Source: Thiothrix subterranea
GTDB taxonomy: Bacteria > Pseudomonadota > Gammaproteobacteria > Thiotrichales > Thiotrichaceae
Assembly: GCF_016772315.1 (NCBI RefSeq)
Contig: NZ_CP053482.1
Location: 3,715,501 to 3,779,500, forward strand
DNA length: 64,000 nucleotides
Direction: 5' to 3'
Shown here one piece after another: positions 42,310 to 56,443 of this stretch. Under the pieces are notes generated by a model. That model saw only the letters and a list, made by a program, of their open reading frames with translations. It was not told the origin of the DNA and made no database searches. Position 1 is the first letter of the stretch. Every line of letters begins with the position of its first letter. A program made the translations under genes and the position numbers.

Positions 42310-42702
42310 TTAGTGGTGATGCTCGTGATCGTGATGATGGTCATGATCGTGTTCATGCGGCGCTGCCGGTGGCAGTGTATTCGACAACAAGGCTTTTACC
42401 GCCGTCACCGGATCAGTTTCCGCCGTTGCCCGCACCATCACACCCCTGCTGCTCATTTTACGCATGAAACCTTCGCCGCAGCCGCTGGTGATTAAATAGT
42501 CTAGTTCAAACAGCGGGTGTTCACCTTGACCATTCCATTCGTGCAAGGCCATTTCCTTGGGCAAGTCCAGCCGCTCAAGTTCCTGTATTTCGTTGCCGTC
42601 ATAAGTTTCGTACACCATAAAACGCCGCCCTTTACCGGCATGTCCAGTAATGGTGCGGAAATTCTGGCTGCTGACGCCAATTTTCAAAGAACCAACTTTC
42701 AT
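42310..42702 (-). CDS. NifX/NifB-type cofactor-binding protein with His-rich tail
   Basis: 130 residues. KIGVSSQNFRTITGHAGKGR and LDYLITSGCGEGFMRKMSSR match the dinitrogenase iron-molybdenum cofactor-binding fold (NifX/NifY/VnfX family). That fold also occurs in non-nitrogen-fixing bacteria as carriers of Fe-S or Mo-type cofactors. The tail HEHDHDHHHDHEHHH is a strong metal-binding stretch. It lies between the Rieske gene (14 bp) and the barrel gene (16 bp). No nitrogenase genes are in the window, so a role in metal or Fe-S trafficking for the nearby redox proteins is inferred. Confidence 0.85.
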   Translation of the reverse strand: MKVGSLKIGVSSQNFRTITGHAGKGRRFMVYETYDGNEIQELERLDLPKEMALHEWNGQGEHPLFELDYLITSGCGEGFMRKMSSRGVMVRATAETDPVTAVKALLSNTLPPAAPHEHDHDHHHDHEHHH

Positions 42703-42716
42703 GGGGGAATCCTCGT

Positions 42717-43313
42717 TTAAGCCACGTTACCGTCTTCGCCGATCAACAGGGTGGCATCGTCTTTGAAGTAGTACGGTGGTACGACCAGATTGGTGGCTGC
42801 CGGTACGTTTTTGTACACCCGCCCTGCCAAGTCAAAGCGTGAACCGTGGCACGGGCAATACCAGCCGCCTTTCCAATCCGCACCCAAATCTTCCGGCGCG
42901 ACTTCCGGGCGGTAAGTTGGCGAGCAACCCAGATGGGTACAAATCCCCACCAATACCAAATATTTTGGGTTGCGCGAACGGTGTGCGTTTTGCGCATAGG
43001 TCGGTTGTTGTTCAACCACGGCGGAGGCTGGGTCACGCAAGTTGTCATCGTTGCTGGGCAAATTCGCCAGCATTTCTTCGGTGCGGTTCACCACCCACAC
43101 CGGTTTGCCGCGCCAAACGATCCGAATCAATTGCCCAGGCTCGACTTTGCTGATGTTGGCTTCAACCGGCGCACCCGCAGCCAGCGCCCGCGCACTCGGC
43201 GACCATGAATTAAGAAACGGGACGGCAACCGCTGCCACTCCCGCCGCGCCCACGACGGAGGTAGCAGCAACGAGCAGGCGACGGCGGCCTTGATTAATGT
43301 CTGTGTGTGTCAT
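42717..43313 (-). CDS. Rieske iron-sulfur protein (PetA-like), no cytochrome b/c1 partner nearby
   Basis: 198 residues. An N-terminal RRRLLVAATSVVGAAG-type Tat/TM anchor is followed by the Rieske [2Fe-2S] domain with CTHLGC and CPCHGSRFDLAGRVYKNVP. This matches the iron-sulfur subunit of ubiquinol-cytochrome c reductase. petB and petC are not adjacent; the gene leads a cluster with a NifX-like protein instead. It diverges from the bd/Fcc operon across a 288-bp region with palindromes. It could be a second, specialised Rieske protein, or the complex III genes may be elsewhere. Confidence 0.92.
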   Translation of the reverse strand: MTHTDINQGRRRLLVAATSVVGAAGVAAVAVPFLNSWSPSARALAAGAPVEANISKVEPGQLIRIVWRGKPVWVVNRTEEMLANLPSNDDNLRDPASAVVEQQPTYAQNAHRSRNPKYLVLVGICTHLGCSPTYRPEVAPEDLGADWKGGWYCPCHGSRFDLAGRVYKNVPAATNLVVPPYYFKDDATLLIGEDGNVA

Positions 43314-43601: not shown

Positions 43602-44945
43602 ATGGAAATGCTCGGATTATACCCCACTTGGCTAGAGCCAATGTTGGGCAGCGGTTGGGTGGTCGCCATTATTTCGACCATCCATGTCTTGGCGTCCCAC
43701 ACTTCGGTGGGCGCGGCAATGGTGTTCGCCTACCTTGCGGTGGTGGCGTACCGGCAAGACAAGCCGGAATTGCTCGATTACATCAAAAAGTACGGCATGT
43801 TCCTGCTGGTATTTTCTTATGTGATTGGCTCGATCACCGGCCCCGGTATCTGGTTTTCGACCACCGTTGCCAGCCCGCGTGGGATTTCGGCACTGATCCA
43901 CAGCTTTGTATGGAAGTGGGCAACCGAATGGGTGTTCTTCGTCATCGAAGTGGTTGGGGTGTATCTGGTGGTGTATTTGGTCGGCAAGGTTGACCAGAAA
44001 ACGCACATGCGCATTGCGGTCATTTTCGGGCTGGCTTCTTACACCACCATGCTGATTATTATCGGAATTTTGTCGTTCATGATGTGGCCGGGCAAGGAAG
44101 TCTGGTTCACCGAAGGCGGTTATCTCAACGGTTTCTACGGGGCGAATACGTTTGCGCAATTGGCGATGCGGACTGCGTTCATGTTCACCATGACGGCGGT
44201 GGTTGGCGGGATTGTCGCGTCGGGTATTAAGGAATTGGCGTTTAAGAAAGCCATGCTGCGCCGTTTGGCAGTGTTGGGGATTGTCTCTACCTTGGCGGGT
44301 TCGCTGCTGTTCCAGTGGTATCTGCATACCCTGCCGGAACAGGCGCATATCGTGTTGGAAAACCGTTTGCCGGATTATTTCCAGCCTGCGTTGATGATGG
44401 TGTTGAGTGGTATTTTGGCGTATTTCCTGTTTACCTTGGTGATGCCGCGTTTGATTGTGCCAGCGATTGCGAGCGTGATGACGGTGGCGATTCTGGTGTT
44501 TGGTTTGTGGCCTGAAGAAGTGGCGCGTGAATCCATCCGCAAGCCTTTTGTGGCGGGGCAATACGTGTATTCCAACCAGGTTATTGCACGGGATGTGCCG
44601 GGGCTGGGAATTAAATCGGAAATTCCGTTGCTGGAGGAAAAAGGTTTTCTGCAAAGCCATGTATTTTTGCCGGAAAACCTGCGCACCGTCACGCCGGATA
44701 ATGCGCGGGCGGTGGGTCATGCACTGGCAATGACGGCATGTTCCAACTGCCATTCCTTGACCGATACGGGGATGCGTCCGCTGGCAAAGTATTTCGGGGG
44801 CAATACCGATGTGGGTGACATCAAGGATTATTTGCTGGGCGCATTGGCGACGGGCAATACCTTGTACATGCCGAAAATTCCGCTGACTGATAGCGAAGCC
44901 GAAGCCTTGGCGGTGTATATCGGCGCGTTGGATGGGGAGAAATAA
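43602..44945 (+). CDS. bd-type oxidase subunit I-like protein fused to a C-terminal cytochrome c domain
   Basis: 447 residues. The first 340 hold about nine TM helices resembling CydA: two His near the start (IHVLASHTSVG, His28 and His33), GSITGPGIWFSTTVASPRG, then WATEWVFFVIEVVGVYLV and an MMWPGKEVWF loop. The CydA quinol-site motif GRQPW is not found. The last 100 residues are a class I cytochrome c domain with CSNCH (Cys380, Cys383, His384) and a Met in LYMPKIPLTDSEAEAL. The fused c-type haem and lack of the Q-loop motif suggest electrons enter from cytochrome c, not quinol. The gene starts the operon with FccB. Identity as a divergent bd superfamily member is from motifs and needs alignment. 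Confidence 0.75.
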   Translation: MEMLGLYPTWLEPMLGSGWVVAIISTIHVLASHTSVGAAMVFAYLAVVAYRQDKPELLDYIKKYGMFLLVFSYVIGSITGPGIWFSTTVASPRGISALIHSFVWKWATEWVFFVIEVVGVYLVVYLVGKVDQKTHMRIAVIFGLASYTTMLIIIGILSFMMWPGKEVWFTEGGYLNGFYGANTFAQLAMRTAFMFTMTAVVGGIVASGIKELAFKKAMLRRLAVLGIVSTLAGSLLFQWYLHTLPEQAHIVLENRLPDYFQPALMMVLSGILAYFLFTLVMPRLIVPAIASVMTVAILVFGLWPEEVARESIRKPFVAGQYVYSNQVIARDVPGLGIKSEIPLLEEKGFLQSHVFLPENLRTVTPDNARAVGHALAMTACSNCHSLTDTGMRPLAKYFGGNTDVGDIKDYLLGALATGNTLYMPKIPLTDSEAEALAVYIGALDGEK

Positions 44946-44948
44946 ACC

Positions 44949-46172
44949 ATGAATGCTGAAATGTTATACGCCTTGCGCGATGTGGCGGGTGTGCCTTCGC
45001 ACCCTGTGACCTTCCTGATTTTGGGGGTGTTGACGTTTGCGTTGCACATCCTCGCGGTGCAGGTGATGTTGGGCGCGTCCGGTCTGGTGATTTGGGGTGC
45101 GTTGTCGAAAGCGGCTTATCAACGCCAATTGGCGCAGGCGATGTTGGGCGTGGCGAAAATTGCCGTGTCGGTCGCGGTGGTGTTGGGGGTTGCGCCCTTG
45201 CTGTTTGTGCAGGTGATTTATGACCCGTTTTGGTACACCTCGAACGTGCTGTCGGCGTGGTGGGTGATTGGATTTATTTTGATCCTCACCGTCGCTTATT
45301 TGCTGATGTATTTTTTCTACGCGAAAAACCACCATTTGGCAACGCAGAAAACCATTTGCCCCGGCTCGATGATCCTGTCACTGGCGTTGATGTTGGTGGT
45401 CGGTTTCATTATGCACGTCCTCACCTATCAAATGTTGTCGCCGGATCAGTGGATGCAATGGTATGCGCCCAACGGTGAAATTGATGCGTCAGGGCGCAAA
45501 TTGCACGCTTACAACGGGTGGCGTTTTGGGTTTTTCATCAGCTTGTCCGTGTTAGCGATCAGCGGCTGGTTGTTTGCTTACCGCCATTATATTAGCCACC
45601 GCACCGATGTGGATAACGGTTATCTGCAATGGTTGAAAGGGCTGGCAACGGTCTTGAGTCTCGCTGGTGGCATCGTCGCACTGGCCTTCGGCATTGGCTG
45701 GATGGCGACACTGCCAGACAGTCAGGCCGGTTTTGGTTTCTCCCCTTGGGTTGGGCTGGCAGCGGTGCTTATCTCCCTCACCGCTGTCATGCCGAAACTC
45801 ATTGGTAGCCGCGTGAATGCGCCGCTGTTTGGTTACGGTCTGTTTGGGCTGGCAGCCATCACGGGGATTGTGGTGGCGATTGCGCGGGAAGTGTTGCGCT
45901 GGAATATTCTGTTTGGCGATTTTGGCTACAACGCGCTGGATTATCCGGTGAATATGGACTGGTACAGCACGCTGCTGTTCTTTGGCACGTTTGTGATTAT
46001 TGGTGGCTTGGTGTTGAGCTATTTCCTCACCGTGGCCTGGCAAGCGGGGCAAACGGAAGGGGTGTATACGCCTTCGCCTGCGGTGACGCGCTTGGGTAAT
46101 CTTTCCATCCTCCTCATCACGTTGTGGATTATCCACTTCTTCGTGCTGGGGTTGTGGGTGTGGCTGCGCTAA
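44949..46172 (+). CDS. Polytopic membrane subunit, partner of the bd-type/cytochrome c fusion
   Basis: 407 residues, about ten TM helices, 3 bp after the oxidase-like gene. His-rich or aromatic motifs that could hold haem are VLTFALHILAVQVMLGASGL and KNHHLATQKTICPGS, with GFIMHVLTYQMLSPDQWMQW. It does not match canonical CydB by motif and may be a second CydA-like core. In several bd-superfamily branches subunit II is such a diverged protein. Tight spacing implies stoichiometric expression. Function assigned by position and topology. Confidence 0.65.
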   Translation: MNAEMLYALRDVAGVPSHPVTFLILGVLTFALHILAVQVMLGASGLVIWGALSKAAYQRQLAQAMLGVAKIAVSVAVVLGVAPLLFVQVIYDPFWYTSNVLSAWWVIGFILILTVAYLLMYFFYAKNHHLATQKTICPGSMILSLALMLVVGFIMHVLTYQMLSPDQWMQWYAPNGEIDASGRKLHAYNGWRFGFFISLSVLAISGWLFAYRHYISHRTDVDNGYLQWLKGLATVLSLAGGIVALAFGIGWMATLPDSQAGFGFSPWVGLAAVLISLTAVMPKLIGSRVNAPLFGYGLFGLAAITGIVVAIAREVLRWNILFGDFGYNALDYPVNMDWYSTLLFFGTFVIIGGLVLSYFLTVAWQAGQTEGVYTPSPAVTRLGNLSILLITLWIIHFFVLGLWVWLR

Positions 46173-46179
46173 GGGGGCA

Positions 46180-46671
46180 ATGATGAAACTGAACACAATC
46201 CTATTGCCGCTGTTGCTGGTGTCCTGCATTGGCACGGTACAGGCAGACGAGAAAAAAGCCGTCGAAAAAGTCGCCAAAGCCGTAGAAGCCAAAACGGTAG
46301 AAGCGAAAGCACCTGCCGACAGCGTTTCCAAAGACGAATTACGCGAGATGATCCGCGAATTGATTCAGGAAGAAATGGCGAATCTGCAACCGACCAGCAA
46401 CACGGACAGCAAGCCAGTTGCACCTGCTCATGCCGCGAAAGCGGGCGAAATCCTCGCCCATACCTGCGCCGGATGTCATGGCACAAATGGCACGCTGGAA
46501 AACGAAGCGTTCATGCCGCTGGCAGGAATGCCGGAGCAGGAATTCGTTAAAACCATGCTGGATTTCCGCGATGGAGCACGCCAATCGACCCTGATGGGCA
46601 CGGTTGCCAACGGCTTGAGCGAACAGCAAATCCGCGACATGGCACGTTATTTTATGGAGGTTTCCCCATGA
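46180..46671 (+). CDS. Periplasmic monohaem cytochrome c with N-terminal helical linker
   Basis: 163 residues. Signal peptide (LNTILLPLLLVSCIGTVQA), then a charged Lys/Glu/Ala helical segment (about 23-75), then a class I cytochrome c domain with CAGCH. MPLAGMPEQEFVKTMLDFRD and MARYFMEVSP match FccA-type/cytochrome c4-type half domains. It lies 8 bp after the membrane subunit and overlaps fccB by 4 bp (ATGA). It may be one cytochrome partner of FccB or a shuttle to the oxidase. Confidence 0.88.
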   Translation: MMKLNTILLPLLLVSCIGTVQADEKKAVEKVAKAVEAKTVEAKAPADSVSKDELREMIRELIQEEMANLQPTSNTDSKPVAPAHAAKAGEILAHTCAGCHGTNGTLENEAFMPLAGMPEQEFVKTMLDFRDGARQSTLMGTVANGLSEQQIRDMARYFMEVSP

Positions 46672-48020
46672 GTCTGAGCCGACGTGAGTTTTTGGGGCTG
46701 CTCGGCGCAACCGCGCTGGCGGGCGCATTCCCTGTCCGTAGCGCGTTTGCGGTGGCGCAACCGCATGTGGTCATTATCGGCGGCGGGGTAGGCGGGGCAA
46801 CCGCTGCCAAATACCTGCGGCTGCTGGATGCCAACCTCAAAGTGACGGTGATTGAAAAAAATCCGGTCTACATCCGCCCTTACGGTTCGTCCGAAGTCGT
46901 GACCGGACATATCAAAATGGACGATTTGAACGTGACGTATGACGCGCTCAAATCCAAATACGGCGTGAATGTCATTATCGACGAAGTGGTTGGTTTCGAC
47001 CCCGACAAGCGCAACGTCAAGCTCAAAGGTGGGCGTGCCGTGCGTTACGACAAGCTGGTGGTATCGCCGGGGATTGAGTTGCTGTACGACAAAATTCCGG
47101 GCTATTCCGCTGAAATTGCCGACACTAAAGTCACTTCGGGCTGGATTCCGGGCAAGCAAACCGCGTTGCTGGGCGAACAGCTCAAAGCCATGCCGCAAGG
47201 CGGTACGTTCCTGATGGTGGCTCCACCCGCGCCGTACCGTTGCCCGCCGGGGCCTTACGAGCGTCCGGCTCTGGTGGCGGAATGGTGCCAAAAACACAAC
47301 CCGACCGCCAAAGTCATTATCGTTGACCCGAAAGACGAATTCGTCACCGACCAGACCATGATGCTGGGCTGGAATCGTTTGTACGGCTTCAATATCCCGG
47401 AAAAATTCCGCAAGGATATGCCCGCAAGTGTGGAGATCAAGCAGCACAGCAATCCCGGCATCCTGAGCTGGATTCCGAAAGCGGATGGCGGCACACCCGT
47501 GTTGCTGGACGTTGAAAAAATGACGCTGAAAACCGACGGCGGCGACATCAAGGCGGATGTGATCAATATCGTACCGCCGATGCGGGCGGGCAAGATTGCC
47601 ACCGCGATGGGGCTGACCGACGAAAAAGGTTGGTGTCCGAATCAGCGCAAGACCTTCGAGTCCAGCCTGCACCCGCATGTGCATGTGATTGGCGATGCGT
47701 GTCATGCCGATGCGATGCCGAAATCCGGCTTTTCGGCGAATACGCAGGCAAAAACCGTAGCGCGTGCGATTGTCGAAGCGTTGGCAGGGCGTGAAATTCC
47801 CACACCTAGTTGGGAGAACACCTGTTACGCGCTGGCGGGTTCGGATTACGGGCTGTTCGTCGCTGACGTATTCGAGCTGGTGGAAGCCGAAAACAAGATC
47901 AAGCGTGTCGGTAAATTCAGCCGTTACCTGAAGCTGGATGCGACTCCGGCACAAATTCGCATGGGCGCGGTGTATCAGCAGGCTTGGCTGAAATCCTTCA
48001 CGGAGGACTGTTTTGCATGA
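46668..48020 (+). CDS. fccB: Flavocytochrome c sulfide dehydrogenase, flavin subunit
   Basis: 450 residues. A Tat signal (SLSRREFLGLLGATALAGAF) fits periplasmic export with FAD bound. The FAD site is HVVIIGGGVGGATAAKYLR. YRCPPGPYERP and NTCYALAGSDYG carry the Cys pair that forms the redox disulfide in known FccB, and VHVIGDACHADAMPKSGFSA is the second FAD motif. It oxidises sulfide to sulfur or polysulfide and passes electrons to a cytochrome c. It overlaps genes for cytochromes c on both sides by 4 bp, so it is translated with them. Confidence 0.95.
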   Translation: MSLSRREFLGLLGATALAGAFPVRSAFAVAQPHVVIIGGGVGGATAAKYLRLLDANLKVTVIEKNPVYIRPYGSSEVVTGHIKMDDLNVTYDALKSKYGVNVIIDEVVGFDPDKRNVKLKGGRAVRYDKLVVSPGIELLYDKIPGYSAEIADTKVTSGWIPGKQTALLGEQLKAMPQGGTFLMVAPPAPYRCPPGPYERPALVAEWCQKHNPTAKVIIVDPKDEFVTDQTMMLGWNRLYGFNIPEKFRKDMPASVEIKQHSNPGILSWIPKADGGTPVLLDVEKMTLKTDGGDIKADVINIVPPMRAGKIATAMGLTDEKGWCPNQRKTFESSLHPHVHVIGDACHADAMPKSGFSANTQAKTVARAIVEALAGREIPTPSWENTCYALAGSDYGLFVADVFELVEAENKIKRVGKFSRYLKLDATPAQIRMGAVYQQAWLKSFTEDCFA

Positions 48021-48718
48021 AAATTTCACAAATTTCCTTGATTGGGGTGGGTGCTGCCCTGTTGGTATCCGGCTGGGTGTGGGCGAATGAGGCCGCGCAT
48101 GAAGCGGTGGATGCGGTTAAATGGAAACCCGCCACCTTGCGCGTAGCGTTGGCGGACATGCCAGCGGGTGACATTGCGCGTGGTAAAGCGCTGAATTCGC
48201 AACTGATGTGCGCGTCGTGCCACGGTGAAAATGGCGTTGCTCCGACCAGCAATTGGCCAAACGTTGCGGGGCAAAAAAACGATTACACCTACAAAATGTT
48301 GCTGGATTATAAGTCGGGTTTGCGTAGCGAAGATGAGCGCAGCAAGTTGATGACGGTGGCAGTCGAGCCAATGAGTCAGCAGGATATGGCGGATGTGGCG
48401 GCGTATTACGCGAGTTTGCCTGCACATGAAGTCACGGTGAAAGCTCCAGCGCACGCGGATGCGGAACGGCTGGTGCGCAAGGGCGATCCAACGCGCTTGC
48501 TGACACCGTGTGCGTCGTGCCACGGGGTGAAGGGGCAGGGCGGCAAGGAGGCGGCTCCGGCATTGGCGGGGCAGTCGGAAAAAGCGTTTATCCGTACCAT
48601 GATGCTGTATAAAAACGGCGAGCGCGATAATGATGTGAACAAGTCGATGGCGCAGTTTGCCGGTAAGCTGACGGATGAGGAAATTCGGCAGTTGGCGGCG
48701 TATTACCACACGCGATAG
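48017..48718 (+). CDS. Dihaem cytochrome c (FccA/cytochrome c4-like)
   Basis: 233 residues with a signal peptide (KISQISLIGVGAALLVSGWV, ending WANEA). Two similar cytochrome c domains each contain CASCHG (LMCASCHGENG and TPCASCHGVKG) with candidate Met ligands in VAVEPMSQQDMA and VNKSMAQFAGKL. This is the organisation of FccA and cytochrome c4. GGAGG lies about ten bases before the ATG, which overlaps the fccB stop. It would accept electrons from FccB and hand them on, possibly to the fused cytochrome c of the bd-like oxidase. A terminator follows. Confidence 0.9.
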   Translation: MKISQISLIGVGAALLVSGWVWANEAAHEAVDAVKWKPATLRVALADMPAGDIARGKALNSQLMCASCHGENGVAPTSNWPNVAGQKNDYTYKMLLDYKSGLRSEDERSKLMTVAVEPMSQQDMADVAAYYASLPAHEVTVKAPAHADAERLVRKGDPTRLLTPCASCHGVKGQGGKEAAPALAGQSEKAFIRTMMLYKNGERDNDVNKSMAQFAGKLTDEEIRQLAAYYHTR

Positions 48719-49777: not shown

Positions 49778-51301
49778 ATGGCACGCTACAAACCGATTCA
49801 TCAAGGCGTAAAACTGTTGGCAGTGGACTTTGACCGCCAAATTCTCCCCGGCACGTTTGAACATGCGCTGCGCCATTTGGTTGACCACGAACTCGACCTT
49901 GAAGGTTTCCACCAGCGTTATAAGAATGATGTGCAGGGAGCGGCAGCATTTAACCCAGCGGTGTTACTCAAAATCATCCTGTTAGCTTACAGCCGTGGCA
50001 TTATCAGTAGCCGCAAAATCGAAGCGGCGTGCCGCGAGAATATGCTGTTCATAGCGATTTCCGGTGACAGCCAGCCGCATTTCACCACGCTGGCGGCTTT
50101 CATCGCCAATGCCGGGGAGTTGATCGCCAAACTGTTTACCCAAGTGCTGCTAATTTGTGACCGCCAAGGCTTGATCGGGAAGGAGATGTTTGCCATTGAC
50201 GGGGTGAAGTTGCCCTCCAATGCCAGCAAAGAAAGGTCTGGCACTCGCGCTGACTTCTTGCGCCAAGCCGAACGCATGGAAAAAGCCGCCGCCAAGATCA
50301 TCGACAAACACCAACAAGCCGATGCCAGTAAAACGGATGCGGCGGCAGCCCAGCGCGAAGCCAAACAACTGAAACGCCTGCAACACGAAGCCAAACAGTT
50401 ACGCTATTGGTTGGCGGACAACCCCGAAGACCGCAAGGGGGTTAAGGATGGCATCCGCCTGTCCAACCGCACCGACAACGAATCCGCTAAAATGGCAACC
50501 AGCAAAGGCGTGGTGCAAGGTTATACCGGCGTAGCAGCCGTGGATTGCCACTACCAAATCATTATCGAAGCCCAAGCCCACGGCACAGGGTCGGAACAAG
50601 AACTGCTGATGCCCGTGGTCAATGCCACCGCTTCAATGCGCACTCCCGAAACGGTGATCACCGCCGACAACGGCTACCACAGTGAAGCCAACCTCAAAGC
50701 CTTGGCGGATGCTGGAATTGATGCCTACATCCCTGACAAGGATTACCGCAAACGCGATGAACGCTATGCCGATCAGACGGTGCATCAGCAAAAACCTGAC
50801 CCCTTATCGAACAAATGCCCCAAGCCCAGCAAAACCAAAACCTATAAACCTGCCGACTTCCAATTAGCCGCTGACCTTAGCCATTGTCTTTGCCCGGCGG
50901 GAAAACGCCTTTACCGTACCGGCAGAAATTGTACCCTGAATGGCTATGCTTCGGTACGTTTCCAAGGGGCGTTGCGTGACTGTGAACCCTGTACACAGCG
51001 TCCCCAATGCCTGAAAGACCCGGCAAAAACCCGCGCACGGCAAGTCACTTTCCTGCAAGGCAAGCGCGATGACACCCCCAGCCACACCGATTTGATGAAA
51101 CCCAAAATCGACTCCGACCTCGGCAAGCGCATGATCACCCAACGCTTCGCCACCGTCGAACCGGTGTTTGGGAACTTGCGCGGCAACAAACGCCTGCACC
51201 GCTTCACCTTGCGCAGCAAAGCCAAAGTGGACGGGCAATGGAAACTGTTTTGCCTGATGCACAACCTCGAAAAGCTGGCACATCACGGGTATGCCGCATG
51301 A
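49778..51301 (+). CDS. IS1182-family DDE transposase
   Basis: 507 residues, intact. The N-terminus (FDRQILPGTFEHALRHLVDH, then GAAAFNPAVLLKIILLAYSR) and RKIEAACRENMLFIAISGDS match IS1182-type transposases. EMFAIDGVKLPSNASKERSG contains the first catalytic Asp; VITADNGYHSEANLKAL the second, and the Glu is expected in RFATVEPVFGNLRGNK. A Cys-rich segment (CLCPAGKRL, CEPCTQRPQC) is typical of the family. It catalyses cut-and-paste movement of the element. Its GC content is higher than that of the surrounding cassettes. Confidence 0.93.
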   Translation: MARYKPIHQGVKLLAVDFDRQILPGTFEHALRHLVDHELDLEGFHQRYKNDVQGAAAFNPAVLLKIILLAYSRGIISSRKIEAACRENMLFIAISGDSQPHFTTLAAFIANAGELIAKLFTQVLLICDRQGLIGKEMFAIDGVKLPSNASKERSGTRADFLRQAERMEKAAAKIIDKHQQADASKTDAAAAQREAKQLKRLQHEAKQLRYWLADNPEDRKGVKDGIRLSNRTDNESAKMATSKGVVQGYTGVAAVDCHYQIIIEAQAHGTGSEQELLMPVVNATASMRTPETVITADNGYHSEANLKALADAGIDAYIPDKDYRKRDERYADQTVHQQKPDPLSNKCPKPSKTKTYKPADFQLAADLSHCLCPAGKRLYRTGRNCTLNGYASVRFQGALRDCEPCTQRPQCLKDPAKTRARQVTFLQGKRDDTPSHTDLMKPKIDSDLGKRMITQRFATVEPVFGNLRGNKRLHRFTLRSKAKVDGQWKLFCLMHNLEKLAHHGYAA

Positions 51302-51518: not shown

Positions 51519-52382
51519 ATGCAAAATCTGAAAGAAAAGATTGCAGAAAACAAGCTACCCGCTTTATTTCATTTGTCAAAAATAGGCATATACCACAATG
51601 AAATATTATTAGATAATCAGCCTGACTATGATCTCACAAGTTACGAAGGTTTAAACCAAAAAGAATATGCGCTAAATGAAATAGCCAATATCTCATTAGA
51701 CTATCAATACATCTTTCATGTGGATTTACATGACTTAAAAAAAATTGACTATTACGATAATGAAGAGATAGGTGATATATCTTCTAAATATTTTATCAAG
51801 AGGGTTGATAGACGATTAAAGGAGATAGAGTTTAAAGGGCAGTTACTAGGAGATGGCTTTGACATTGGAGGAGAACTCTACAAAACTATTGCAGATATTG
51901 AAGTTATTGGTTTAACAAAAGTCGATGCTAATCAATTGAGTTTATATCAAGAACTTATGCTAGAAGGGCATCTCCTTGAATTAGAAAATAACTATAGAAT
52001 GAGCTTTTTCACATATTTCACAGCACTTGAAAGTTTCGTAAGAGAGAAATTGGAAGAAATAAAGAATAATACATATAAAGAATTACATGAAAAAATTGAA
52101 AATTTAAGTCTTAGAGATAAAATCAGTATCCTTTTCAAAAAAGAATTCAATATTGAAAACTTAGATGAGTCTACATTCTGGTCTACTCTTTCAGGTTCTA
52201 AATTAATAAAGAAGGCCGTTGATATGAGAAATGACATAGCGCATGGAAAACATAAAGATGATTTAACCCAAGAAATTGTTGATGATTGTTTTTTATTGAT
52301 GGCACTATTGATCGGCTCATTGAGAGATCATATTCACGATGTCAATAAAATTAGAAAATATCTGTATCCAAAAATAGTCTAA
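51519..52382 (+). CDS. Cassette gene: HEPN-like protein
   Basis: 287 residues, AT-rich. The C-terminal half is helical and ends with the RxxxxH motif of HEPN ribonucleases in VDMRNDIAHGKH. FFTYFTALESFVREKLEEIK fits the first HEPN helix. The N-terminal half (YALNEIANISLDYQYIFHVD) has no match. HEPN proteins often cut RNA in toxin-antitoxin or abortive-infection systems; no partner gene is in the same cassette, so the toxin role is inference. The stop lies inside attC 2. Confidence 0.65.
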   Translation: MQNLKEKIAENKLPALFHLSKIGIYHNEILLDNQPDYDLTSYEGLNQKEYALNEIANISLDYQYIFHVDLHDLKKIDYYDNEEIGDISSKYFIKRVDRRLKEIEFKGQLLGDGFDIGGELYKTIADIEVIGLTKVDANQLSLYQELMLEGHLLELENNYRMSFFTYFTALESFVREKLEEIKNNTYKELHEKIENLSLRDKISILFKKEFNIENLDESTFWSTLSGSKLIKKAVDMRNDIAHGKHKDDLTQEIVDDCFLLMALLIGSLRDHIHDVNKIRKYLYPKIV

Positions 52383-52468
52383 CGATTACATCGACGACGG
52401 ACGCGGTGATAGCCCGCGATTCTTAATTTCTATTTCCCGCCGCGCCCGTCCAAGACAAAACGTTAGGC
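52378..52468 (+). repeat. attC site 2 (complete)
   Basis: R'' GTCTAAC (52378-52384) and R' GTTAGGC (52462-52468), with the inner arms GACGACGGACGCGG and CCGCGCCCGTC in between. 91 bp, able to fold as a hairpin. Shares its inner sequence with attC 1 and attC 3, as in one chromosomal integron. Confidence 0.9.
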
Positions 52469-52485
52469 GGCAAGGCAGATCACAT

Positions 52486-52962
52486 ATGCGCCCTTACGAC
52501 GGAATTGACTATCGATACAGCAACAATGACCCTGAACAGGAAGAAGCCATCGGAGTCATTGCAAACATCTTGGGTTTCCGGCCTTCAGCAACCGATCTGG
52601 GTTACGCCCTGAATTTTTATGCCGGGGGCTCAGGGATAGATGATCGTTTAGCCATTCGTTGTCTATATGTCGCGTCTGATTGGCCTTCGATAGCCCGCAC
52701 ACTTCGGCTCAAGAGAGTTAGTGAAGTGTCCAGCGACCCCGATTGGGAAGAAGCATTTCGCTGGTTGATAGATGCAGAAGACATCGAAAAATCACTTGAA
52801 ATTCACAGCCACCGGTTCATCAACAATAAGAAGCTCGAATTCCAAGATATTGCTGATGAGCGCTGGGAAGTCTTCTTCTCCAACGAAAGTGATGTGAATT
52901 CGTGGTGCGTTGTATGGCGCAATAACACCCACCTAAACTACGTGAGCTTCGATCAAGGATGA
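52486..52962 (+). CDS. Cassette gene: hypothetical 158-residue protein
   Basis: Soluble, acidic and without signal peptide or TM helix. Visible features: NDPEQEEAIGVIANILGFRP, the segment DWPSIARTLRLKRV, WEEAFRWLIDAEDIEKSLEI and ERWEVFFSNESDVNSWCVVW. It looks like an intact globular protein, but no family is recognised. It starts 18 bp after the R' core of attC 2. GC content is higher than in the neighbouring cassettes, suggesting a different source. Confidence 0.65.
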   Translation: MRPYDGIDYRYSNNDPEQEEAIGVIANILGFRPSATDLGYALNFYAGGSGIDDRLAIRCLYVASDWPSIARTLRLKRVSEVSSDPDWEEAFRWLIDAEDIEKSLEIHSHRFINNKKLEFQDIADERWEVFFSNESDVNSWCVVWRNNTHLNYVSFDQG

Positions 52963-52992
52963 TCATGCACCTAATTCGGCTTTGCGAAACTC

Positions 52993-53012
52993 CGCCGCCT
53001 AACAAACTGTTA
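52993..53012 (+). repeat. 20-bp boundary box, copy 2
   Basis: CGCCGCCTAACAAACTGTTA, one base different from 49008-49027. It follows the hypothetical gene by 30 bp and holds GCCTAAC (R''-like) and GTTAAAT (R'-like) almost side by side, so it may be a collapsed or unusual attC. Confidence 0.6.
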
Positions 53013-53133
53013 AATGACCAAGAAGCACAAAAAACCACCAATTCAATAAAGTAAACTGATCAATCATATAACAACACTTGCTTATTTGATGTGATACACT
53101 TAAGTTTGGTTTTCGTATAGAGAAAAGCTAAAA

Positions 53134-53568
53134 ATGAAGCTGTATCTTGACAATTGTATGTTCAATCGACCGTTTGATGATCAATCAAACCTTAAAGTAT
53201 TGCTAGAATCCGAGGCAAAATTAAGAATACAAGAAAATATTCGTTCAGGTATATATGAACTTGTTTGGTCTTATATATTGGATTATGAAAACAATAAAAA
53301 TCCCTTCTTAGAAAGAAAAGAACAAATTGGAAAGTGGAAACTATATGCACACACTGACATAGAAGAAGATGAAACCATAATTAATCTTGCAAAGTCAATA
53401 AATCAACTTGGCTTAAAAAAGTTTGATTCTTTACATATCGCTTGTGCCATTAAAGCAAATTCAGACTATTTTCTAACCACCGATATTGGCATAATTAAAA
53501 AAGCCAACATTGTTAAAACCATTAAGATAAAAGACCCAATTGATTTTATCCGGGAGGTGTTCGCATGA
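53134..53568 (+). CDS. Cassette gene: PIN-domain toxin
   Basis: 144 residues. MKLYLDNCMFNRPFDDQ holds the first Asp of a PIN domain; YELVWSYILDYENNKNP follows, then LKKFDSLHIACAIKANSDYF and LTTDIG with the other acidic residues. Such proteins are RNase toxins of VapC-like pairs. The downstream gene overlaps by 4 bp, so toxin precedes antitoxin. About 120 bp of leader with AT-rich boxes suggests its own promoter, as is usual for toxin-antitoxin cassettes in integrons. Confidence 0.8.
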   Translation: MKLYLDNCMFNRPFDDQSNLKVLLESEAKLRIQENIRSGIYELVWSYILDYENNKNPFLERKEQIGKWKLYAHTDIEEDETIINLAKSINQLGLKKFDSLHIACAIKANSDYFLTTDIGIIKKANIVKTIKIKDPIDFIREVFA

Positions 53569-53768
53569 TTACTGATACAGAGATAAGAGTAAAAGGGGTT
53601 CAAGTTCTTGCTCAATATCTAGGTGATATTGAGATGGAAAGATTTATAGCTCTCATTCAAAGAGAACCCTTTGATTATACTAAATGGCGACAAAATATAG
53701 ACGATGATGATAGCATCGAGAGTATTAGCAAAAAAGCAATGCAATTAAGAGCCAATAAAACTAATTAA
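53565..53768 (+). CDS. Cassette gene: antitoxin-like partner of the PIN toxin
   Basis: 67 residues. ITDTEIRVKGVQVLAQYLGD, then MERFIALIQREPFDYTKWRQ and a charged tail. The protein is of a type often found after PIN genes. It overlaps the toxin gene by 4 bp. It has no recognised DNA-binding fold; the antitoxin role rests on size and position. The stop lies 6 bp before attC 3. Confidence 0.75.
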   Translation: MITDTEIRVKGVQVLAQYLGDIEMERFIALIQREPFDYTKWRQNIDDDDSIESISKKAMQLRANKTN

Positions 53769-53773
53769 AAATC

Positions 53774-53858
53774 ATCTAACGAATACATCGACGACGGACG
53801 CGGTGACAGCCCGCGTCTTCGTCTATTCTCCCCCGCACCCGTCATATTAACGTTAGGT
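53774..53858 (+). repeat. attC site 3 (complete)
   Basis: R'' ATCTAAC (53774-53780) and R' GTTAGGT (53852-53858), with inner arms GACGACGGACGCGG and CCGCACCCGTC. 85 bp. Very similar to attC 1 and 2. Confidence 0.9.
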
Positions 53859-53863
53859 ATTCC

Positions 53864-54286
53864 ATGGACTATACACCCTCCGATGACGTTGAGAAATCGC
53901 TAGATTTAACTGAGCAATTGATGCTTGGCTATTACAGAGAATATGGCCTCGTTTGGGATAGGGGCAAACGTAGGGAGCTTTTAGATTCAGTGGAGCATTT
54001 CCATATTTTGAATAATGGCTCCTTTATTGGCTTTTTCGCATTCTTCAAAGAAGAAGATTATATTTATGTCTGCGATCTGCAATTGTCACCAGAGCACCAA
54101 AATAAGGGTGTGGGTAGTGCTGTAATGCAGTATATTATTGGCATTGCGTCATCGTTGGGTTTAATGGCTATAAAACTGTCCGTCTTTAAGTCCAATAGCG
54201 TCGCAATGCATCTTTATCGGCGTATTGGTTTTGTTGTGTCGGAAGAGGGTAAAATGGTTTATCGGCTTAGTTATGAACTTACCTAA
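53864..54286 (+). CDS. Cassette gene: GNAT-family N-acetyltransferase
   Basis: 140 residues. The acetyl-CoA site is QLSPEHQNKGVGSAVMQYII (Q/RxxGxG/A-type loop QNKGVG). The C-terminal motif is NSVAMHLYRRIGFVVSEEGK, typical of GNAT enzymes. Such cassettes acetylate antibiotics, proteins or toxins; the substrate is unknown. It starts 6 bp after attC 3, and its stop lies at the start of attC 4. Confidence 0.9.
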   Translation: MDYTPSDDVEKSLDLTEQLMLGYYREYGLVWDRGKRRELLDSVEHFHILNNGSFIGFFAFFKEEDYIYVCDLQLSPEHQNKGVGSAVMQYIIGIASSLGLMAIKLSVFKSNSVAMHLYRRIGFVVSEEGKMVYRLSYELT

Positions 54287-54391
54287 CAATCGCAACTAGC
54301 CGGAAATATTTTCCGTTCCTTATTTTGCGGTCTACGCTACGCTACCGCAAAACAATCCACTCCAAATATTCCGCTGTTGCGAGCGTTATAT
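54281..54391 (+). repeat. attC site 4 (longer type)
   Basis: R'' ACCTAAC (54281-54287). The left arm TAACAATCGCAACTAGCCGG continues AAATATTT and pairs with the right arm AAATATTCCGCTGTTGC, then GAGCGTTA. R' is GTTATAT (54385-54391), slightly off the GTTRRRY consensus, as is common. 111 bp and different in inner sequence from attC 1-3. Confidence 0.75.
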
Positions 54392-54414
54392 TTTTACCGA
54401 ACGGTTATACATCA

Positions 54415-55428
54415 ATGGAAAAAGTTTTCAGAAATTATAAATACGTTAATTCTTCTATTTTTGACTTGATAGATGGTGACAAAGAAGTAAAACAAACAAT
54501 AGCCCTTGGTTATCTTTTATCTCAAGATGAGAATATACTAAGACAATTTTTAAGCCTAAAGCCAATTGTTTCTGTGATGGGGAAATATAAAGAAACTGAT
54601 TTTTCAAAAATTATAATACATACTGAATTGACCTCAAAAAATGACAAAAGAATCGACATATCAATTCAATTTTATAAAAATAACAAACCAATAAAAGCAT
54701 TAATAATAGAAGCCAAGAACATTAAACTAAACATCTCGCCTAAAAATGTCGTTAATCAAATCACTAAATACTTAGAGAATGAAGAGTTTAAAGAGTTACA
54801 TGGTTTTGAGGTATTGTATGGCTGTATTTTATCAAAAAACAATTTTATATTTAAATCAGAAAAAATAGTCTCAATATTTTGGAGTGATATAATAAATATT
54901 TTATACAAGTCTGCTGGTCTAGCTAAAGATTTTTTAACCTTTTTGACAAGGATAAATGGCTCTATGAATTTCTACGAGAAAGAAGTTTACTCAGTACCTG
55001 CTGGTGAAACATCTATATATCAATATGGTTATCCACATATATACGAATGCCCTAATTCTGGAAAAAATTATAAATCAATAAAAAAACCACTATATTTTGC
55101 TTTCCGACAGAAGGATGGTGGTATAATGGAAAAACTATTTGGGGTTGAAGAAATTATTATCTTGAATCCTAATCAGGACTTTGAATCATTCTTAGATGAT
55201 CCCTCATATTCTGACACAACAAAAGAGAGAATAAAGAACTATTGTGACAATATTTGGGGAGAGGAAAAATATAGCGATGATGAAAAGCAATTTTTTATTT
55301 TATCTTCATCAAATCAAATTAATCTTTCGCATAAGCCCAGACCAAAAGCTAATAATTCTTTTAGAGCCTACTACAAATTATCTGATTTGCTTGACGTTAA
55401 CAAAATATATGTTGAGGCAGAGAAATGA
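54415..55428 (+). CDS. Cassette gene: restriction-endonuclease-like (PD-(D/E)XK) protein
   Basis: 337 residues from the ATG at 54415, after the R' core of attC 4; an earlier in-frame start at 54325 would be inside the attC. The nuclease core is DKRIDISIQFYKNNK with Asp, then ALIIEAKNIK with the Glu-x-Lys pair, and QITKYL in the next helix. This D...ExK layout fits the PD-(D/E)XK superfamily, as in type I/IIG restriction enzymes or defence nucleases. The C-terminal half (SVPAGETSIYQYGYPHIYEC) is not recognised. GC content is very low. A DNA-cleaving defence role is an inference. Confidence 0.65.
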   Translation: MEKVFRNYKYVNSSIFDLIDGDKEVKQTIALGYLLSQDENILRQFLSLKPIVSVMGKYKETDFSKIIIHTELTSKNDKRIDISIQFYKNNKPIKALIIEAKNIKLNISPKNVVNQITKYLENEEFKELHGFEVLYGCILSKNNFIFKSEKIVSIFWSDIINILYKSAGLAKDFLTFLTRINGSMNFYEKEVYSVPAGETSIYQYGYPHIYECPNSGKNYKSIKKPLYFAFRQKDGGIMEKLFGVEEIIILNPNQDFESFLDDPSYSDTTKERIKNYCDNIWGEEKYSDDEKQFFILSSSNQINLSHKPRPKANNSFRAYYKLSDLLDVNKIYVEAEK

Positions 55429-55621
55429 GTGATAATACATAAAAATTTATTCTTATCTGTCAAATTATATAAGCATCCATGCGAAATTTTTTGGCGGATT
55501 AATAGATTAACTTATTTGATAAATAAGCATACAAATCCTAAAAAACCATAAAAAGGTATTTATCTTTAAATTATAGTTAGAGCAGGATAAGCCAATCCAT
55601 TTAGTTTAAGTCTTAATTTTT

Positions 55622-56443
55622 ATGATTATAACTTCTATTGCCGTAAGTCTTTATTTATGTTTATTACTGGTTTTTATAGCTTATAGACCAGATGATAGAA
55701 TATCCATAAAATATACCGCATTTCCTGCTTTTTTGATAAATAACGAAGATATAAAAATATACTCAAATGATAAAAATCTCTATGTTTATTCGATTTTTAT
55801 AAAAAACAGCAAAAAGAAAAATATTTTAAACTATGAAAGTTTGAAAACAATAAAAATTACGACAGAGAACAGTGTTAGCTTCAAATCCATAATTTCAAGT
55901 AATCCTTCTTATATAAAAAATAATATTTTACTAAAAGATAAGGAAGTGAGCATTCATGTTGCTGAATTACAAGAACATGACTTTATACGCATAGATTTTT
56001 TATATTTATCAGATTTCAAAAGTCATCATCAAAAAGATAAAAATACGATATTTTTTGACCCACCATGTTTGTGTTTTAATGATGAAATAATAAATAAAGA
56101 AATTTCTGTTAATCAGTTCCGTATTGGAAAAATAACAGAAAGTAGTTTTTTTGGAAAAATATTAAGAAGTTTTTTTATCATTTTCATGAATACTGCAATT
56201 CTATTAGTGATATATGGAATTATTAATCAATTGAGTGATATTCTTTATACGAATGTTTCTTTTGATATTAAAGAAGTTGTTTATAATTTTTTTGAATCTA
56301 TTTTTATTTTAGCAACTGCTGCATTTCTGTTAATGTTTTTTGGATATACAAAGCATGAAAACGAAAATAATCTTGTGAATGATATTAAAGATTATTACGG
56401 AATTTCTAATGCGATTAATATTATTGCATATGTTATTATGTAG
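55622..56443 (+). CDS. AT-rich gene: membrane protein of unknown function
   Basis: 273 residues. One N-terminal TM helix (MIITSIAVSLYLCLLLVFIA), a beta-rich domain of about 150 residues, and two further TM helices near IIFMNTAILLVIYGIINQLS and FFESIFILATAAFLLMFFGY. A soluble tail ends with DYYGISNAINIIAYVIM. Extremely AT-rich codons. No attC is visible between it and the nuclease gene 193 bp upstream, so the two may share a cassette or lie beyond the array. Not recognised; could be a membrane effector. Confidence 0.6.
   Translation: MIITSIAVSLYLCLLLVFIAYRPDDRISIKYTAFPAFLINNEDIKIYSNDKNLYVYSIFIKNSKKKNILNYESLKTIKITTENSVSFKSIISSNPSYIKNNILLKDKEVSIHVAELQEHDFIRIDFLYLSDFKSHHQKDKNTIFFDPPCLCFNDEIINKEISVNQFRIGKITESSFFGKILRSFFIIFMNTAILLVIYGIINQLSDILYTNVSFDIKEVVYNFFESIFILATAAFLLMFFGYTKHENENNLVNDIKDYYGISNAINIIAYVIM

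Follow-up and report, generated by a model that had tools for sequence, protein, structure and literature searches.

What does an oxidase of the membrane do in one operon with a sulfide dehydrogenase? The question is raised by a stretch of 64,000 nucleotides from the 4.08-Mb genome of Thiothrix subterranea, hereafter the window, in which an operon of five genes on the + strand spans positions 43602-48718. Among named species, the locus is most similar to those of Thiothrix caldifontis (99%) and T. lacustris (97%). We estimate, with a probability of roughly 0.6, that the operon encodes a sulfide-to-oxygen electron-transfer system, in which a cytochrome c-oxidising oxidase of the bd superfamily has a flavocytochrome c sulfide dehydrogenase (FCSD) of its own as a partner. 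The genes are the following.

43602..44945, + strand: subunit I, bd-superfamily (CydA-fold) membrane protein of 447 aa with 8 predicted transmembrane (TM) helices and a C-terminal haem-c domain (C380-S-N-C383-H384, M423)
44949..46172, + strand: subunit II, membrane protein of 407 aa with a CydA/CydB-like fold, apparent paralogue of subunit I (conserved H33, H156, H186, E314, R317)
46180..46671, + strand: monohaem cytochrome c of 163 aa, probable FccA, the FCSD haem subunit (one CAGCH; PDB matches)
46668..48020, + strand: FccB, the FCSD flavin subunit, 450 aa (twin-arginine-like start; redox cysteines C192 and C386)
48017..48718, + strand: dihaem cytochrome c of 233 aa, c4-like, probable electron shuttle (two CASCH; PDB match)

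The junctions are, in gene order, a gap of 3 bp, a gap of 7 bp and two 4-bp overlaps, and a purine-rich stretch lies directly 5' of each of the five starts. An earlier interpretation of this DNA (the sequence-only reading) had counted three junctions of at most 8 bp or overlapping; the packing is as tight as it held, and the count should be four. The CSNCH motif that it placed at 380-384 of subunit I and the dihaem nature of the fifth product (two CASCH) were both confirmed, and a single CAGCH is found in the third protein.

The first protein had been called CydA-like. This is right, though hardly visible in the sequence, and was decided by the fold. PF01654 gave no match to the window protein at 1e-3. 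In the PF01654 search of the own genome subunit I appeared at E 0.004, below the cut-off, along with two full canonical CydA genes, and 18 of 43 members of the subunit I family were matched at up to 0.01. A weak c-haem family match is all that Pfam and NCBIfam yield for the window protein, and a sequence search against PDB chains returned nothing useful. With the AlphaFold model (pLDDT 76, pTM 0.73) as a query, Foldseek returned cytochrome bd first (7e-5), and the ten best PDB entries in VIA-align were all cytochrome bd (Z 18.8-21.8, the best being 21.8; 303 residues aligned to 6rx4_A); the unrelated enzyme fold against which the sequence-only reading had cautioned was not seen among them. A profile comparison with canonical CydA gave 91% probability and E 1.1e-6 over TM1-TM5, compared to 49% in an earlier run with fewer subunit I rows. 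The CydA profile comprised 29 canonical sequences, 27 from loci of a 60-genome phylum sample and both own-genome copies; two weak PF01654 matches (L136, L137), missed in the first comparison, were left out of it. These comparisons support subunit I as a bd-superfamily protein with the CydA fold, fused to a c-haem domain.

After cytochrome bd, the model next resembles alternative complex III and polysulfide reductase (VIA-align Z 14.5-16.1). Given that the bundle fold is common to the membrane subunits of these complexes, subunits I and II might reduce another substrate, e.g. nitric oxide, or act as a membrane electron conduit rather than as an oxygen reductase. However, the CydA entries score clearly higher and residues resembling H19, E107 and E445 of CydA are retained, which makes such a function improbable.

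These residues were compared in an alignment of 82 subunit I sequences, formed by 78 close relatives including that of the window and by homologues from Methylosinus, Thermus, Agrobacterium and a second Thiothrix. Positions H28, H33, E109, R190, E306, R309, E310, R313, K314, C380, C383, H384 and M423 are invariant in all 82, and E116 is glutamate in 81 and aspartate only in Thermus. The Escherichia coli residues used here for comparison are H19, E99, E107, E445, R448, P450, H186 and M393. H28 aligns with the H19 position in the profile comparison. The spacing of E310-x-x-R313-K-P315 is that of E445-x-x-R448-Q-P450 in CydA (AE-x-x-R-Q-P), and the last aligned pair in the alignment to 6rko_A, 324/459 with an offset of 135, places 310 on 445. 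Hence, by alignment and motif spacing, the equivalents of the active-site residues H19, E99/E107 and E445 are present.

The quinol module fares differently. GRQPW is absent, literally as had been stated, but its region is degenerate rather than wholly gone, and E-x-x-R-K-P remains. Among the 82 sequences no histidine of TM5 and no methionine of TM7 is conserved as a ligand of haem b558 in the manner of H186 and M393. In the model, the connection between TM6 and TM7 has about 16 residues, thus the Q-loop is missing, and the c-haem domain follows TM8 at the C-terminus. The comparison of haem ligands and quinol-site residues that had been suggested therefore has two sides: H28, E109 and E310 of the active site are kept, the b558 ligands are not conserved, and there is no complete quinol site. 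The loss of the module (Q-loop, GRQPW and b558 ligands) is supported, and the modelled anatomy fits a haem c in place of the quinol site and haem b558. One might still argue from the spacing around E310, since the corresponding segment of CydA lies next to GRQPW, that subunits I and II are a quinol oxidase with an accessory c-haem. We regard this as very improbable, as there is neither a Q-loop nor a conserved TM5 histidine or TM7 methionine for haem b558, and E445 of CydA is a ligand of the active-site haem, not a quinol residue.

Neither Pfam nor NCBIfam gave a match to subunit II of the window, and 42 members of its family show scattered matches to domains of unknown function and one to an ATP-binding cassette (ABC) domain. 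Its model (pLDDT 92) is closest to CydA chains in the PDB (Z up to 25.7; a CydB chain scored 22.1, with one chain shown per entry), and the best Foldseek rows are a mix of CydA and CydB. Profile comparison ties it to subunit I with E 6.8e-9 and a score of 72.9, compared to 18.4 and 21.5 for the reversed controls. Its match to the CydA profile is weak (E 0.0035), and the comparison with the CydB sequence of the own genome gave no match (18.8). H33 in TM1, H156, H186 and E314-x-x-R317 are kept in 73/73 close relatives; E314 is replaced by histidine in the two most distant homologues (L107, L011). Given the profile kinship and the kept residues, the two subunits look like superfamily paralogues. 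The second membrane subunit of the sequence-only reading is thus there, but not as an evident CydB: subunit I looks to be its paralogue. It may bind haem too. The two distant oxidase pairs are located at L107:5798-8586 (another Thiothrix, G001) and L011:7995-10558 (an Agrobacterium plasmid); in the former, a c-haem domain is found at the end of both membrane subunits.

The fourth gene had been named FccB, and its product indeed carries the FCSD_central (6.5e-37) and FCSD-flav_bind domains, with the best PDB alignment to 3vrd_B (8.6e-104) and a further one to 1fcd_A. The redox cysteines C192 and C386 are invariant in all 57 oxidase-linked FccBs of the tree described below. In the Allochromatium enzyme flavin adenine dinucleotide (FAD) is covalently bound via Cys42. 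The window protein has proline (position 71) where this cysteine aligns, which is present in 21 of the 57 linked FccBs versus 29 of 37 others; the covalent-FAD cysteine was not treated as defining for FccB, because eight of these 37 also lack it. The third gene, described before simply as a cytochrome c, can be specified: its product has its best PDB matches in cytochrome c4 (5.9e-15) and in the FCSD haem subunit (4.3e-13; 3vrd_A, 1fcd_C), the gene ends 4 bp inside that of FccB, and it is best read, from its sequence, as FccA. The fifth protein matches cytochrome c4 at 2.9e-25. A lipoprotein anchor (LVSC) considered for the FccA-like protein of the window was dropped, as proteins from other loci mostly have plain signal peptides or an N-terminal helix.

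A scan of 84,980 species genomes yielded 79 distinct loci related to the operon; they were taken from the best 80 of 208 confirmed stretches and so lean to close relatives. FccB is encoded in the same locus in 65 of them. Ten end too near a contig end to judge (L029, L034, L042, L045, L053, L069, L083, L087, L092, L095), and four, two from Methylococcus and two from Thiobacillaceae bins, have no FccB, though one of the latter (L094) has less than 500 bases upstream, so that an FccB may lie there. All five genes are complete in 61 loci, with the order of the window in 56 and the c-FccB pair first in five; gene starts were chosen by a script here, hence the individual gap values are rough. The five packed genes reported by the sequence-only reading thus recur as a set, as does its specific link to FccB. 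Many carriers are named sulfur oxidisers; others include Hydrogenophaga, Rhodoferax, Tepidimonas and Marinobacterium. No relative was found in a scan of viral contigs.

Close to home, the distribution is patchy. In the genus Thiothrix, 8 of 16 genomes, that of the window included, have a subunit I copy at 96-100% identity and one has a 29% homologue; half of the sampled Thiothrix genomes are without the operon. None of the 41 other sampled members of the family and class has a copy. In a phylum sample of 398 genomes, subunit I is found in three (two at just 31%) and FccB in 95. Most FccBs therefore live without this oxidase, whereas in the clade of the window the oxidase is rarely without FccB.

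A phylogenetic tree was built for FccB from 149 sequences, reduced to 116 by removing identical ones and to 94 by merging at >90% identity, with L022 and L169 left out. Of the 94 rows, 57 are linked to the oxidase and 37 are not. A single clade of 59 (Shimodaira-Hasegawa-like approximate likelihood ratio support 100) holds 57/57 linked rows, and its two unlinked members come from genomes also carrying a linked copy. The linkage label changes three times on the tree; 500 shuffles gave 29.3 changes on average. On the tree of subunit I (82 rows: 64 linked, 10 not, 8 unknown), linkage is one change with a support of 95; L022 and L027 were left out, L053 and L087 are absent, being cut, and the outgroup branches are long. 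Both are quick trees built without bootstraps. The rows counted as linked include L035_170, an additional FccB whose gene lies about 5.7 kb 5' of that for subunit I. The label "alone" means, for L140-L168, that no close subunit I was seen in the same genome sample, and for L199-L218 it comes from stretches with little flank; two "alone" rows, L190 and L206, were checked over 16 kb, and the FccB rows of G139 and G242 keep the label with a 31% subunit I homologue on another contig.

Distances between subunit I and FccB are correlated (r 0.70, 62 rows; 0/999 permutations as high), as are those between subunits I and II (r 0.91), though shared descent alone could produce such correlation. Subunit I keeps at least 60% identity to the window, whereas FccB goes down to 37% (62 rows). 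This could have meant repeated independent recruitment of FccB, a reading that was rejected given the single linked clade. Thiomicrorhabdus heinhorstiae (L056:3885-13204, L204) has two tandem operons whose subunit I and II genes are identical (1455/1455 and 1212/1212 bases), and their FccBs are just 46% identical: one oxidase is kept with two different sulfide dehydrogenases.

The chief rival explanation is one of shared regulation. Subunits I and II would be a general cytochrome c oxidase, co-induced with FccAB and working when sulfide poisons the haem-copper oxidases, and electrons from FccAB would enter the common cytochrome c pool and reach any oxidase. Homologues of the oxidase do exist apart from FccB, the own genome encodes other oxidases, and the 95 to 3 ratio in the phylum sample also agrees with it. 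On the other hand, the linked FccBs form a clade of their own instead of being drawn from many, and a single gene order is retained in 56 of the 61 complete loci. We consider this explanation rather unlikely.

Several observations weigh against the preferred sulfide-to-oxygen system. The subunit I model has moderate confidence (pLDDT 76), which is low at 103-107, near E109, and at 314-325, after E310. In the comparison with the CydA profile, reversed controls score as much as 42.1 and 35.0 versus 58.7, so the structure is stronger evidence for kinship with CydA than the profile. No FccB is found near the homologues in methanotrophs (L097, L099 and Methylosinus L009), in two Thiobacillaceae bins (L094, L096), in Thermus (L010), in Agrobacterium (L011) or in another Thiothrix (L107), and thus the oxidase itself is not sulfide-specific. 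Finally, a bc1 operon, three COX1-family matches and the two canonical CydA are present in the own genome as well, which bears on the bypass of quinones and complex III suggested by the sequence-only reading.

Some of these loci have features of their own. On a plasmid of Methylosinus sp. C49 (L009:8001-12943), the oxidase pair is found with a c-type cytochrome and a sensor kinase/response regulator pair, adjoining methanobactin genes; this context would fit a copper-free oxidase for copper starvation. In the own genome, a second monohaem c-FccB pair is encoded at C1 2469160-2470877 (L105:4161-5878) with no oxidase beside it, and its FccB falls outside the linked clade. At C1 3395945-3400145 (L104:4946-9146), a gene of the FccB/sulfide:quinone oxidoreductase (SQR) family (25% to FccB; the SQR label is our assignment) is located 171 bp 5' of canonical cydA and cydB, an ABC-transporter gene comes next, and this cluster is a possible quinone-route counterpart of the operon in the window.

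Members of the OR-C family carry a fused C-terminal cytochrome c. Subunit I has such a fusion and no quinol site, and the oxidase probably belongs to this family. In the parts of the literature consulted, the qOR, OR-C and OR-N families are described, with a quinol site in qOR alone (PMC13189123, PMC10839748, PMC11707229). Besides the fused cytochrome c, OR-C shares with subunit I a CydA-fold core without a quinol site and a proposed non-quinol function; the portions consulted do not mention the pairing with FCSD, the unit of five genes or a second subunit that is a paralogue and has a conserved histidine and glutamate of its own. The OR-N/CydAA' enzymes (Nitrospirota, Nitrospinota) are likewise presented as bd-superfamily proteins without a quinol site and as proposed cytochrome c oxidases formed by two paralogues, and some adjoin another respiratory complex (OR-N5 lies beside alternative complex III) (PMC10839748, PMC12342949). 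By description they are a separate branch, whereas the partner here is a sulfide dehydrogenase and the haem c is fused to subunit I.

Canonical cytochrome bd (CydAB, qOR) has the CydA fold and residues of the H19, E99/E107 and E445 type in common with the oxidase, and differs in having the Q-loop, conserved b558 ligands, GRQPW and an evident CydB, and in lacking the extra haem c. With FccAB of known structure (1fcd, 3vrd, 5n1t) the operon shares a full-length FccB match, both redox cysteines and a haem-c gene just upstream; different are the separate clade of the linked FccBs, the proline of the window protein at the flavin-linking position and the genetic tie to an oxidase. A membrane-bound FCSD was reportedly obtained from Thiobacillus W5 (Visser, 1997, as cited in PMC5733100) and may merit re-examination. 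A Thiothrix genome paper, as far as consulted, lists fccAB apart from the cbb3, cox and cyd oxidases (PMC7767063). A literature search joining flavocytochrome c or sulfide dehydrogenase with bd-type, OR-C or CydA-like oxidases returned, among the matches listed, no title or abstract opening reporting such an operon. Non-quinol bd families are already described in these sources, and the operon adds an apparent further case, in which the oxidase genes are tied to those of a dedicated sulfide dehydrogenase.

We infer the course of the reaction, from haem content and oxygen reduction to the direction and partners of electron transfer, sulfide resistance and energy coupling, as follows. FccAB would oxidise sulfide in the periplasm at the flavin/disulfide site of FccB and then reduce the haem c of FccA. 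Electrons would pass, via the dihaem c4-like cytochrome or from FccA itself, to the haem c fused to subunit I, which would take the place of the lost quinol site and haem b558 and supply a two-haem active site reducing oxygen. As with cytochrome bd, the protons would presumably be cytoplasmic. The oxidase, formed by two paralogous membrane subunits, would be copper-free, and sulfide would be respired without the quinone pool or bc1. A reason for pairing such an oxidase with FccAB is suggested by E. coli, where, in the part of the study consulted, bd oxidases are insensitive to H2S and bo3 is inhibited (PMC8657789). More tentatively, all five proteins might be joined in a single complex, a dedicated sulfide:oxygen oxidoreductase. 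Its oxidase would be a dimer of CydA-like paralogues, each with an oxidase-type haem pocket (H28/E310 and H33/E314), fed by c-type cytochromes only, and respiration would be resistant to sulfide and independent of quinone, bc1 and copper; we hold this stronger version to be doubtful.

The surroundings of the operon are variable. As a candidate for a wider conserved neighbourhood, the commonest neighbour family lies beside just 10 loci, all from Thiomicrorhabdus or from unnamed bins of Thiotrichales or Gammaproteobacteria, so conservation does not extend beyond the five genes. In the window, three divergent genes are located 5' of it: a Rieske protein, a small NifX-like protein and one further protein. 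The Rieske gene (42717-43313, - strand) is the second one of the genome, has 72% identity over 200 aa to the Rieske protein of the bc1 operon and adjoins no cytochrome b or c1 gene. The NifX-like protein (42310-42702, - strand) has a Nitro_FeMo-Co match below the cut-off and a His-rich tail; its relatives are found beside the operon in six loci (L022, L058, L062, L073, L078, L081). The 3' side has one open reading frame and then another at 49778-51301, which we take to be transposase-like, and a stretch of low GC content (0.30-0.38) at 52000-56000. In six other loci (L046, L061, L066, L071, L072, L075) the operon is followed by a metallo-beta-lactamase-fold protein, presumably resembling persulfide dioxygenase.

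As subunit II has no family label and subunit I just a weak c-haem label, surveys based on family names would miss this oxidase. The donors of non-quinol bd-superfamily oxidases have so far been proposed rather than demonstrated, according to the literature consulted in part; the stable pairing with FccB, seen in dozens of genomes, points to one specific donor, so that the question can be put to the test. If the proposed function is true, Thiothrix, Thiomicrorhabdus, Halothiobacillus, Thiomonas, Hydrogenophaga and others would have a respiratory branch that is quinone-independent and possibly sulfide-proof.

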